The notes under the pieces: generated by a model | What the model saw: only the letters and a program-made list of their open reading frames with translations | What the model was told of the DNA's origin: nothing | Databases searched by the model: none | Virus record (IMG/VR): IMGVR_UViG_3300037042_001372 | Span: 1-25,949 of that record | Direction: 5' to 3' (one strand) | Source: a virus | Length of the DNA: 25,949 bases | Translations under genes and position numbers: made by a program | Part shown: positions 13,884-21,249 of the stretch, one piece after another | How the letters are laid out: every line of letters begins with the position of its first letter | Position numbering within the stretch: the stretch's first letter is position 1

Positions 13884-14081
13884 CTAGCCCCCTTTTGTCG
13901 CCTTGAGCAGCTCAGGTATAAGCGCTCGGTAGAAAGTGTCTATCTCGTCAAGTGTCAACGTCCTGACGTCGGGGATCCCCGCGTAGTCCCTTGCTCCCTG
14001 GAGCATCTGAAACAGCGGGGCCTCGTAGCCCCGCTGTTTTATAGCTTCACCGCGGGTGACTACCACCGCCGTCACATGACC
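13884..14081 (-). CDS. Frameshift extension of the gp41-like tail chaperone (gp41')
   Basis: This open frame is expected to be made as the C-terminal part of a fusion with gp41 after a -1 ribosomal slip at 14081-14087. Read on from the slip it adds about 65 residues (GHVTAVVVTRGEAIKQRGYE, then about 45 more), giving a fused protein of about 197 aa. It lies directly before the tape measure gene, where lambda-, Mu- and P2-like phages have their chaperone frameshift pair (gpG/gpGT in lambda). A GTG at 14075 could start a free 63-aa form but has no visible ribosome site. The region includes a 12-bp perfect hairpin at 14010-14039. Confidence 0.85.
   Translation of the reverse strand, partial: GHVTAVVVTRGEAIKQRGYEAPLFQMLQGARDYAGIPDVRTLTLDEIDTFYRALIPELLKATKGG
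14010..14039. promoter_or_regulatory. Perfect 12-bp intragenic hairpin in gp41' frame
   Basis: Plus-strand arms aaacagcggggc (14010-14021) and gccccgctgttt (14028-14039) close a 6-base loop; twelve contiguous pairs including a GGGGC/GCCCC core. It lies 41 bases downstream (minus sense) of the slip site. On the plus strand it is followed by T then TAT, giving a short U tract; on the minus strand the tail is only CAG after three Us of the stem. It could slow RNA polymerase or ribosomes before the tape measure gene, or terminate antisense transcripts. Confidence 0.7.
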
Positions 14082-14476
14082 AAAAAAAGCGATACCAGCG
14101 CGAACAACACCCGGATGTCTTTCGGCTTGAGCTGGGAAGGTGGGACCCCGCCCCCTGTGAGCTCCTTGATGACGGTAAACATCTTGGCCGTGTTTTCGCC
14201 GGCTTTGACACGGTCCATCGACATCAGCACCGCGCCGGTCATTTCCTTGAACTCCATGGCCTTTCCGCTGGTGGTCGTATATACCGGGCGCCCGTCGTCT
14301 GTCAGGCGCAGTTCACCGCCCACCAGCGCCCGACAAACTTTGCGCTTGAGCTCGTCAAAGCCTTTGACGGTGTCGTCGTCTTCGCCAGTCAGGTCCGTTT
14401 CTACGCCCATAGTGGCGCACATCCGCTCGAACTCCTGGTCCGCCATGTCAGGCGGCATGATCGCTTGCTTGCTCAT
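14072..14476 (-). CDS. Mu gp41-like tail assembly chaperone
   Basis: The start is ATG 14476 (MSKQAIMPPDMADQEFERM), with AGGG 8 bases upstream; an ORF extension to 14566 runs through a structured noncoding leader and starts with unlikely residues, so I reject it. The 134-aa product has an acidic middle (VETDLTGEDDDTVKGFDELK), GGELRLTDDGRPVYTTTSGK and a helical C-terminal half (GGVPPSQLKPKDIRVLFALV). Small acidic proteins between tube and tape measure genes are the tail chaperones that coat the tape measure before the tube polymerises. A 159-base gap separates it from the tube gene and holds a terminator and a candidate pseudoknot. Confidence 0.85.
   Translation of the reverse strand: MSKQAIMPPDMADQEFERMCATMGVETDLTGEDDDTVKGFDELKRKVCRALVGGELRLTDDGRPVYTTTSGKAMEFKEMTGAVLMSMDRVKAGENTAKMFTVIKELTGGGVPPSQLKPKDIRVLFALVSLFLVM
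14081..14087 (-). promoter_or_regulatory. -1 frameshift slippery heptamer T TTT TTG
   Basis: In the gp41 frame the mRNA reads CTT TTT TTG GTC ATG TGA. The heptamer T-TTT-TTG fits the X XXY YYZ rule exactly in frame, three codons before the gp41 stop. A one-base backward slip continues into the open frame that ends just before the tape measure gene. Candidate stimulators downstream are GTGAC/GTCAC (5 bp, beginning 5 bases on) or GCGGTG/CACCCGC (6 pairs with one bulge, about 11 bases on). Confidence 0.88.
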
Positions 14477-14481
14477 CTTCT

Positions 14482-14550
14482 TAGCCCTGTAATTAGGACG
14501 GGGGCGCCCGCTTTCGCGGAGAGGCGCAGGGCTAGTACACCGCGCCCCCG
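14482..14550 (-). promoter_or_regulatory. Candidate pseudoknotted leader controlling gp41 translation
   Basis: In minus-sense RNA: P1 pairs CGGGGGCGC (14550-14542) with GCGCCCCCG (14507-14499), nine perfect pairs. P2 is CCGC-GAAA-GCGG (14519-14508), a hairpin with a GNRA loop directly abutting the 3' arm of P1. P3 pairs UAGCCCUG (14534-14527, in the P1 loop) with CAGGGCUA (14489-14482), eight perfect pairs covering the gp41 ribosome-binding AGGG. P1 plus P3 form an H-type pseudoknot that would hide the start of gp41. The pairings are seen in the sequence; the fold and function are inferred. Confidence 0.55.
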
Positions 14551-14596
14551 ACAGAACCCTGCCCACGTAGTATGCACTGAACCGCCGTAAAGAAAA

Positions 14597-14618
14597 AGGC
14601 CACCGATTAAGGTGGCCT
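14597..14618 (-). terminator. Factor-independent terminator after the tube gene
   Basis: On the minus strand a perfect 8-bp stem (aggccacc / ggtggcct) with loop ttaatc ends in TTTTTCTTT, the strongest terminator in the window. It lies 18 bases after the tail tube stop. It should trim transcripts so that sheath and tube mRNA exceed chaperone and tape measure mRNA, as fits the protein copy numbers in a virion. Confidence 0.88.
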
Positions 14619-14635: not shown

Positions 14636-15013
14636 TTACTGCCGCGTCAACTTACCCGGACCAGACAGTGTGACTGCCGCAGTGGTCGACATACTGCTGG
14701 TCTGCTCTTCACCTACAATCTGACCGAGACCTGAGTACACCGCCCCGGAGGCGTAGGTGATATCGATCGGATAGAAGTCCTTTCGGTCTTTCAGGTCCTG
14801 CAGATACTCCTGATCTCCGCGCAAGTCATCGATGGATAGCGTCAAGCCGTCAACTACCCAAGCTACCGCCGTCTTAATCAGGCGCGCGGTACGGTCACCG
14901 TTCGGCTGCACCTCGTTCTCGTACCCGCCCAATTTCCGGTTGCTGTCCGCGTCTGCGGCCACTGAAAAGGTGCGGCCTGCGAGGCCCACACTCTCGATAG
15001 ATCCACCTGCCAT
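14636..15013 (-). CDS. Contractile tail tube protein (Mu gpM-like)
   Basis: A 125-aa protein whose start is fixed by AGGGGGCC just upstream of ATG 15013. MAGGSIESVGLAGRTFSVAA, then DADSNRKLGGYENEVQPNGD and ARLIKTAVAWVVDGLTLSID are typical of the Mu/P2-type tube (Tail_tube) family that forms the inner tube stacked in hexamers. The rest, YPIDITYASGAVYSGLGQIV and the short AAVTLSGPGKLTRQ end, fits the beta-sandwich fold. It follows the sheath gene by 12 bases and is followed by a terminator. The ribosome-binding segment is nearly identical to that of the capsid gene, fitting a high-copy product. Confidence 0.93.
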   Translation of the reverse strand: MAGGSIESVGLAGRTFSVAADADSNRKLGGYENEVQPNGDRTARLIKTAVAWVVDGLTLSIDDLRGDQEYLQDLKDRKDFYPIDITYASGAVYSGLGQIVGEEQTSSMSTTAAVTLSGPGKLTRQ

Positions 15014-20440: not shown

Positions 20441-20962
20441 TTATACCGGTGTTATTGCCGTTTCTTTTGTCACCTGCTCGGCGATCAGCAGAATTGCGGT
20501 CACTGTGTACGTGCCGCCGTTCGAACGGATCGTAATCGGCGCGCCATTGGTCACAATGTTACCGTTCTTGTCGATAGACAGGAATGTCGCCAGTGTAATG
20601 ACGTCTGGCGTCACCGCGGCATCACGGCTCGCCACGAGGCGGTTCCCGTTTGTACCCACGAAATCAAGCTGCATAGAGCGGCTAGAACTCCCACTGGTCC
20701 ATGCCCCTACCAGGTTGATCTTGAACGCGAGGGACGAGTTGTCGTTGTAGGCGTTCAGCTTGTTGCTGACGGTGTTAAAAAACGGGGCCAGTGCGCCAGA
20801 CGTCGGCGCCGGGAGTCCTTTAAGGAAGGTTATGAGGTCGACATTAGTGTCCGTGGCCAGCGTCCTCCCGGTTAGTCCAGACCAATATACCTCGCTCTTT
20901 TTGCGGGTCGGCAGCACTACGGGGGGCGCTGCCTGTGATTCGCTTTCTGGTTCCCAGCTCAT
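20441..20962 (-). CDS. Probable virion protein of unknown role, 173 aa
   Basis: Start uncertain between ATG 20962 (AAGG about 10 bases upstream) and GTG 20968, which overlaps the previous stop as GTGA. The product has a short disordered N-terminus (MSWEPESESQAAPPVVLPTR) and then beta-rich sequence: VDLITFLKGLPAPTSGALAP, FKINLVGAWTSGSSSRSMQL, NRLVASRDAAVTPDVITLAT, DKNGNIVTNGAPITIRSNGG and YTVTAILLIAEQVTKETAI. This looks like a surface-exposed or fibre-like beta domain. It lies between portal and protease, where lambda has nothing similar. I do not recognise the family; a minor head decoration is a reasonable guess. Confidence 0.7.
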   Translation of the reverse strand: MSWEPESESQAAPPVVLPTRKKSEVYWSGLTGRTLATDTNVDLITFLKGLPAPTSGALAPFFNTVSNKLNAYNDNSSLAFKINLVGAWTSGSSSRSMQLDFVGTNGNRLVASRDAAVTPDVITLATFLSIDKNGNIVTNGAPITIRSNGGTYTVTAILLIAEQVTKETAITPV

Positions 20963-20964
20963 AG

Positions 20965-21249
20965 TCACGCCACCTTCGCCACGTTAACTTGTACGACCTG
21001 TGTGGATGTCACCCACGCCCCCGTGTCACCCGCCTGATTCGTCCACACCTCTCCCGGACCGCACTGCCGGTACCCGGACGCCCCTGTCGGCGCGCTTGCG
21101 CCTGAGAACAGTTTTAGCGGAACAGACCCAAGGTTCTGCACACTGATCTGGTCACCGGCTGTAATGCCTGCAGCCAGAACTGCCGGGGCCGCGTACAGGT
21201 TTACCGGGGTGTTTGCCGGTATGGTGATGTTGTTTATTGTATTAGCCAT
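20965..21249 (-). CDS. Small beta-rich head-associated protein, 94 aa
   Basis: ATG 21249 lies inside the end of the portal gene (8-base overlap). The product (MANTINNITIPANTPVNLYA, AGITAGDQISVQNLGSVPLK, FSGASAPTGASGYRQCGPGE, VWTNQAGDTGAWVTSTQVVQ) is a beta-sandwich-like domain with no membrane segment. Similar small proteins 'I.I.A.TPV.LYAA..I..G..I.VQN.GS..L.L...A.P' occur near portal genes of several phages and are usually hypothetical; their pattern resembles virion capping or decoration proteins. It is coupled to the downstream 173-aa gene, so the two may act together. Confidence 0.7.
   Translation of the reverse strand: MANTINNITIPANTPVNLYAAPAVLAAGITAGDQISVQNLGSVPLKLFSGASAPTGASGYRQCGPGEVWTNQAGDTGAWVTSTQVVQVNVAKVA

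Follow-up and report, generated by a model that had tools for sequence, protein, structure and literature searches.

Genomic context of the leader element

The window, i.e. the whole stretch of DNA analysed here, is the linear IMG/VR record IMGVR_UViG_3300037042_001372, with a length of 25,949 nt. It carries the genes of a contractile-tail phage, namely terminase, portal, protease, major head, sheath (the identity of which is taken from the annotation of its relatives), tube, tape measure and baseplate. The tail tube protein gene (14636..15013, minus strand; PHROG 4699, E 2.7e-38), whose counterpart is annotated as tail tube protein in Aeromonas phage AeroV_348, lies 5' of the leader element described below. 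The gene behind the element, located between the tube and tape measure genes (14072..14476, minus strand), encodes a gp41-type protein of 134 aa that belongs to PHROG 4648, a family of unknown function. Phage AeroV_348 is also the closest named relative, with 86% identity across the tube-chaperone region and 96% within the gap, and beyond it a DNA similarity search of phages and plasmids yielded weak or chance matches only. A strong match to 'tail needle knob' (20441-20968, minus strand; PHROG 1030, E 5e-69) sits between portal and protease, an unusual location in a contractile-tail phage.

Relatives of the gp41-type product carry, in phages Scuro and MAG7, the annotation 'tail assembly chaperone', and a slippery heptamer, U UUU UUG (14081..14087, minus strand), is found 13 nt 5' of the stop codon, with a 67-aa -1 extension reaching 13884. 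Of 71 family members, 33 have a slippery heptamer, about 30 of these with an extension of 64-83 aa. Based on the gene position, the slippery site with its extension and the annotation of the relatives, we regard the product as a tail assembly chaperone of the G/GT type. Its structure model is confident (pLDDT 92) and has no significant match in the PDB, the best one showing an E of 1.0. Programmed frameshifting in G/GT-type tail chaperone genes takes place at the end of the gene and fixes the proportion of two products; the element described here would act on the same gene class, this gene too having U UUU UUG, but earlier, at initiation.

Leader architecture in the window

The tube stop (14636) and the gp41 AUG (14476) are separated by a gap of 159 nt, in which the first-pass annotation had placed a pseudoknot covering the Shine-Dalgarno (SD) segment of the chaperone gene. 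When the minus strand, to which all leader coordinates refer, is read one base at a time, each pairing of this pseudoknot is found as proposed. The outer stem, P1, joins CGGGGGCGC (14550-14542) with GCGCCCCCG (14507-14499) through 9/9 Watson-Crick pairs. Hairpin P2 (14508..14519) pairs CCGC (14519-14516) with GCGG (14511-14508) around a GAAA loop (14515-14512). The third helix, P3, joins an anti-SD segment, UAGCCCUG (14534-14527), with the chaperone SD segment, CAGGGCUA (14489-14482), through 8/8 pairs, and covers the AGGG located 8 nt 5' of the gp41 AUG.

Three further parts lie beyond that description. First, the anti-SD is held in the loop of a small hairpin, hA, with the 5' arm GGUG (14538..14541) and the 3' arm CGCC (14523..14526); since P1 encloses two hairpins, hA and P2, the fold is a three-way junction. 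Second, an upstream SD-like copy, SD' (GCAGGGUU, 14555..14562), can form a helix with the anti-SD loop, P0, in which 14562-14555 pairs with AGCCCUGC (14533-14526) over 8 bp including one G-U. Third, a terminator-like hairpin, GGCCACC-UUAAUC-GGUGGCC followed by UUUUUCUUU (14589..14617), can be read from the sequence 3' of the tube gene and is conserved in L002, L003 and L004; it is not among the output of a simple terminator scanner.

In the window clade this hairpin is followed by a conserved block, GUUCAGUGCAUACUACGUGGG (14562..14582), that contains a -10-like CATACT (14574-14569). The block is identical in the window, L002/L005, L003 and L014, and in L014 it starts directly 3' of an inserted gene block. 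It is a possible promoter candidate on these sequence grounds; a promoter scan returned no consensus sigma-70 promoter.

Three perfect pairings had been judged unlikely to arise by chance. For the window alone this holds moderately, as the P1+P3 score is reached by 1 of 100 dinucleotide shuffles, and it does not extend to the pseudoknot-free folding energy of 14470-14592, which is unremarkable (z = -0.8). The element is secured by the comparative evidence that follows, and not by the lone window sequence.

Recurrence of the pairings among relatives

Relatives were collected via their sheath and tube proteins, giving 98 loci and 75 non-redundant gaps. Used as a query, the window chaperone recovered one locus in viral contigs and none in bacterial contigs, and an alignment of diverse chaperones was too variable to serve as a search query, tube- and sheath-based scans being used instead. 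The tube-chaperone gap is usually about 75-125 nt long among the 98 loci. P1 and the loop/SD pairing can be formed in nearly all non-redundant gaps of at least 60 nt, despite the changed sequence; short gaps with an ordinary SD number about 17 in the non-redundant set. The P3 arms of the relatives, given as anti-SD/SD, include GCCCUAU/AUAGGGC, as well as AACCCC/GGGGUU (L072), CUCCUUAC/GUAAGGAG (L082), UUGCCUUGU/ACAAGGCAG (L077), GCCACCCUAU/AUAGGGUGGU (L106), GUCCUG/CAGGAC (L098) and UACCCUC/GAGGGUA (L176). In the VP16T-like Vibrio phages (L094, L096, L097) P1 and P3 are present, P2 is absent and hA is longer.

The element is hosted by phages of Aeromonas, Shewanella, Vibrio, Acinetobacter, Oceanospirillum and Pseudoalteromonas and by many environmental phages, and also appears on contigs binned with Shimia (Roseobacteraceae) and Nitrospinota genomes. 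A separate set of leaders (L006, L007, L062, L078, L080, L039) is longer or divergent, with an outer stem of 8-18 bp and a loop complementary to the SD, i.e. the same logic in another internal architecture; the L078 leader contains a tRNA T-loop-like GGUCCGAAUCC.

Covariation and swap tests

Covariation was analysed on A1, in which 32 relatives were aligned with MAFFT from sequence only and which contains no member of the window clade. Compensating changes in the relatives' gap, put forward at first pass as the check on the structure, are found for P1 and, by the swap test described below, for P3. P1 shows double compensatory changes at 8/8 homologous pairs, with 96.5% of the cells paired; the corresponding values are 89.6% for hA and 78.6% for P2. 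None of 500 shuffles scored as high as the whole structure on any of five measures. Across clusters hA (GGN...NCC) flanks the anti-SD with a nearly invariant GG and a CC that is invariant or nearly so. Among the non-Watson-Crick pairs of P1, G-U outnumbers A-C by 22:4, which indicates that the sense-strand RNA has been selected, and not a DNA palindrome.

On A1, P3 is 72% paired and its covariation score is no better than that of partners slid by +1 to +3, because indels in the loop shift the arms and because of the C/G runs. A1 is hence unsafe for P3 counts, and swap and shuffle tests were used in its place. In the swap test the arms were left unaligned and each loop was scored against its own and against other clusters' downstream segments, using 34 clusters at <72% identity. 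The own pairing scored 17.88 versus 14.27 +/- 0.42 for the permuted ones, with 0/20000 permutations as high (z = 8.6), and against dinucleotide-shuffled downstream segments z was 10.5 (34 clusters); these tests lessen, but do not wholly remove, the effect of shared ancestry. A P3 helix of at least 6 bp is present in 30/34 clusters. From these comparisons of sequence, P1, hA, P2 and P3 are demonstrated as pairings, with selection acting on the sense strand.

A1 also served to build a covariance model, R1, which is limited to P1, hA and P2 and contains neither P3 nor any window-clade sequence. Run over 563 kb, it recovered the window at 14569-14474 (29.1 bits, E 4.8e-4), where it delimits the whole element, plus about 50 other chaperone leaders, with no match elsewhere at E<0.1 and none in the short-gap loci. 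On a wider set it gave 71 matches (about 70 loci, 34 clusters at <72% identity), which always precede either the gene of the tail chaperone or a small gene placed between element and chaperone, and which include one contig binned with the Shimia and one with the Nitrospinota genome; the L094, L096 and L097 leaders are missed or barely detected. Two features of the new family are seen in the window, the R1 scaffold match and an hA loop able to pair fully with the SD of the gene that follows. The single copy and the fixed place of the element are likewise demonstrated, as the 27 phage records and the Shimia- and Nitrospinota-binned genomes searched hold at most one copy per genome, at the leader.

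Chance complementarity in a GC-rich gap could be read from the modest single-sequence statistics (1/100 shuffles, z of -0.8), but it is contradicted by all comparative results, namely recurrence, P1 covariation, R1 recovery, swap tests and G-U bias, and we give it a negligible probability.

A second SD copy and a possible alternative helix

Most members carry SD' 5' of P1, as AAAUAGGGC and variants, and P0 of at least 5 bp can be formed in 29/34 clusters, being lacking or weak in L074, L079, L101-L104, L076, L082 and L098. Analysed as for P3, the own P0 scored 14.88 versus 13.46 +/- 0.42 for permuted pairs (17/20000 as high, z = 3.4), and z was 6.1 against dinucleotide-shuffled sequences (34 clusters), values to be read knowing that simple duplication alone would make SD' resemble SD. 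The duplex energies in the window are -14.8 kcal/mol for P0 and -15.1 kcal/mol for P3, and they are close in many other members too. P0 and P3 are mutually exclusive, so the leader would have two states of similar stability, one of them with the SD free; the sequences are suggestive of such a two-state leader. A conserved upstream ORF, starting from an AUG often found 3' of SD', was considered and dropped, the position A(U/C)G varying as a P1 pair.

In L094, L096, L107, L115 and L127 SD' and the tube stop codon share bases (CAATAGGGC or CAATAGG). This overlap would suit a switch driven by tube translation, in which ribosomes ending at the tube stop mask SD' and the anti-SD then traps the chaperone SD. 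Against it, the window, L014, L069, L077, L092 and L101-L104 have a terminator-like hairpin behind the tube gene, and whole modules also intervene in all of those lineages except the window, yet the leader persists. This persistence disfavours coupling to tube ribosomes as a general rule, and we regard such a switch as doubtful.

Insertions, losses and changed neighbourhoods

The modules just mentioned are gene blocks that split tube from chaperone in Vibrio phages 1.124.O, 1.164.O, H188 and MAG7 (L101-L104) and likewise in L014, L069, L077 and Scuro (L092); several carry HTH or antisense genes. The blocks lie in mid tail operon, each after a terminator-like hairpin. Despite these modules and hairpins the element remains at the chaperone leader. 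In L101-L104 a sigma-70-like TTGTTT-17-TATACT is located directly 5' of P1, so that the mRNA would begin with the element.

On the other side, a small gene is inserted 3' of the element, and uses the element's SD, in L017/L018, L115, L101 and L127. In L017 (2652-2918) and L115 (4475-4741) the inserted gene is an Acb2/Tad1-hairpin gene (anti-defence type) with the element's own SD and start site. Since the element precedes another small gene in four lineages, it would not act only via the chaperone coding sequence, and the spot directly after it resembles an entry site for accessory genes. At L127 (4488-4736) and at MG592499 13254-13448 (in L184) the ORF right behind the element, ahead of the chaperone, is small, unrelated and of unknown function.

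The first-pass annotation had named relatives that keep gp41 and lose the pairings without compensation as evidence against the structure. Relatives keeping the chaperone without the pairings do exist (about 26 of 101), but most of them lost the whole leader and not pair by pair, an entire leader being gone and a short ordinary SD left (e.g. L120, L161, L041). Of the 101 rows in a sheath tree, we labelled 75 as having the element and 26 as lacking it; its state changes at least 15 times on this tree, with 10 changes forced by well supported branches. Such clean losses suggest, at the level of sequence, that the control element can be dispensed with, and not that the structure is wrong. Persistence amid modules and repeated clean losses together describe an element that is old, modular and dispensable.

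In L120 and L161 the gap after the tube stop shows a single AAAATAGGG(C/T) SD and resembles a deletion between SD' and SD. As direct repeats (SD' and SD) flank inverted repeats in the intact leader, a DNA-level element, i.e. a recombination hot spot, a protein operator or a terminator, was also weighed. It is very improbable given the 22:4 ratio in P1, the link of P3 with the SD at a narrow distance 5' of the start codon and, in the window, the lack of a long U-tract after P1.

The losses bear as well on a constitutive structure, which would set a low fixed translation rate or protect or stabilise the mRNA segment, with no switching. That clean losses leave an ordinary SD (L120, L161, L041), that some lineages are without P0 and that a conserved unpaired pocket is absent apart from the complementary segments would all fit such a structure, which we consider possible but not probable. 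A plain SD hairpin would be enough for damping, however, yet a compensated three-way junction pseudoknot is retained, and most clusters retain a second SD copy tracking the anti-SD.

Comparison with known regulatory RNAs

The first-pass annotation knew of no such element for gp41-type genes, and this is borne out: Rfam 15 shows no family at gathering threshold in the window or in 12 relatives' loci, the sub-threshold matches (up to E 5) falling mostly on the terminator hairpin, and a literature search, covering open-access papers and a minority of preprints, found no description of the leader. The SD-hiding leader knot, which returns in dozens of relatives with widely divergent sequences, is, as judged by this comparison, almost certainly real, and it is apparently undescribed.

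Ribosomal-protein leaders (e.g. rpsO/S15) place a pseudoknot translational operator before a structural gene. Neither a sequence nor an Rfam relation to the leader was detected for them, and here the gene is a phage tail gene. The rpsO pseudoknot is mentioned in a 2010 review (PMC3014915) according to which the gene 32 pseudoknot of T4/T2/RB69 is possibly the only viral pseudoknot involved in translational autoregulation. It is the closest case known from phages: both that pseudoknot and the present leader are phage mRNA leader pseudoknots controlling translation initiation, in our case presumably. The gene 32 pseudoknot, however, is found about 67 nt upstream, where it acts as the nucleation site for gp32, which binds over an A+U-rich ribosome binding site, and its gene product is a ssDNA-binding protein, whereas here the SD is itself a pseudoknot arm and the product is a tail chaperone (PHROG 4648). 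The gene 32-type arrangement, a pseudoknot located upstream with the SD excluded, is thus not that of this leader, whose SD forms the 3' arm of P3.

The closest architecture is that of the preQ1-II riboswitch (RF01054), a pseudoknot of three stems that has an additional hairpin and buries the SD entirely in an anti-SD/SD helix (PMC11625349, PMC11262651). Both bury the SD in a pseudoknot helix; unlike preQ1-II, this leader holds the anti-SD in its own small hairpin and has an upstream SD copy. The likeness to such SD-sequestering three-stemmed pseudoknots would speak for a new class of metabolite riboswitch. Such a class is improbable, as unpaired nucleotides other than those of SD', anti-SD and SD are not strongly conserved, the window and the 12 relatives show no match to RF01054 or to any other Rfam riboswitch, the clusters have no conserved unpaired ligand pocket, and the gene is structural, not metabolic.

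Proposed function

We hold with good confidence that the leader at 14569-14474 represents a conserved cis-regulatory RNA family of 40-50 kb contractile-tail phages, built on an SD-hiding pseudoknot. In the proposed mechanism P1 encloses hA and P2 as a three-way junction, and the anti-SD in the hA loop pairs with the chaperone SD outside P1, giving a pseudoknot that would block 30S binding. In most lineages, the window included, SD' would compete for the same anti-SD through P0, leading to an SD-hidden or an SD-free state. The net effect would be to keep chaperone translation low, or to delay it, compared with that of the abundant tube protein. Sequestration of the SD that limits chaperone translation is the most likely function given the conserved pairings; repression itself we infer from the geometry.

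Concerning what may operate the leader, a phage tail protein acting autogenously is our tentative first candidate. The absence of any trigger, with constitutive damping or co-transcriptional timing, comes next as a possibility, ribosome traffic from the tube gene is doubtful and would concern only lineages without a terminator, and a host factor or metabolite is the least likely of these. Autoregulation by the chaperone through direct RNA binding is possible, but is not favoured by the acidic character of the protein (pI about 5), whose structure model matches nothing known. An RNA thermometer is not favoured either, as a GC-rich junction would be needless for it and the hosts are diverse. Tentatively, two near-identical SDs may compete for one anti-SD within the three-way junction, with a tail protein, or the translation of the neighbour gene, switching between the two states and matching the chaperone to tail assembly.

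The proportions of tail parts in phages are usually attributed to gene order, promoters and programmed frameshifting. To these a conserved SD-hiding pseudoknot would add control of the chaperone at the level of initiation, apparently unlisted before. As a compact SD-switch scaffold of about 95 nt it represents a new design, and it offers a direct and cheap test of tail-assembly feedback on translation. If the two-state reading is true, tailed phages would have in this leader a widespread means of translational feedback.
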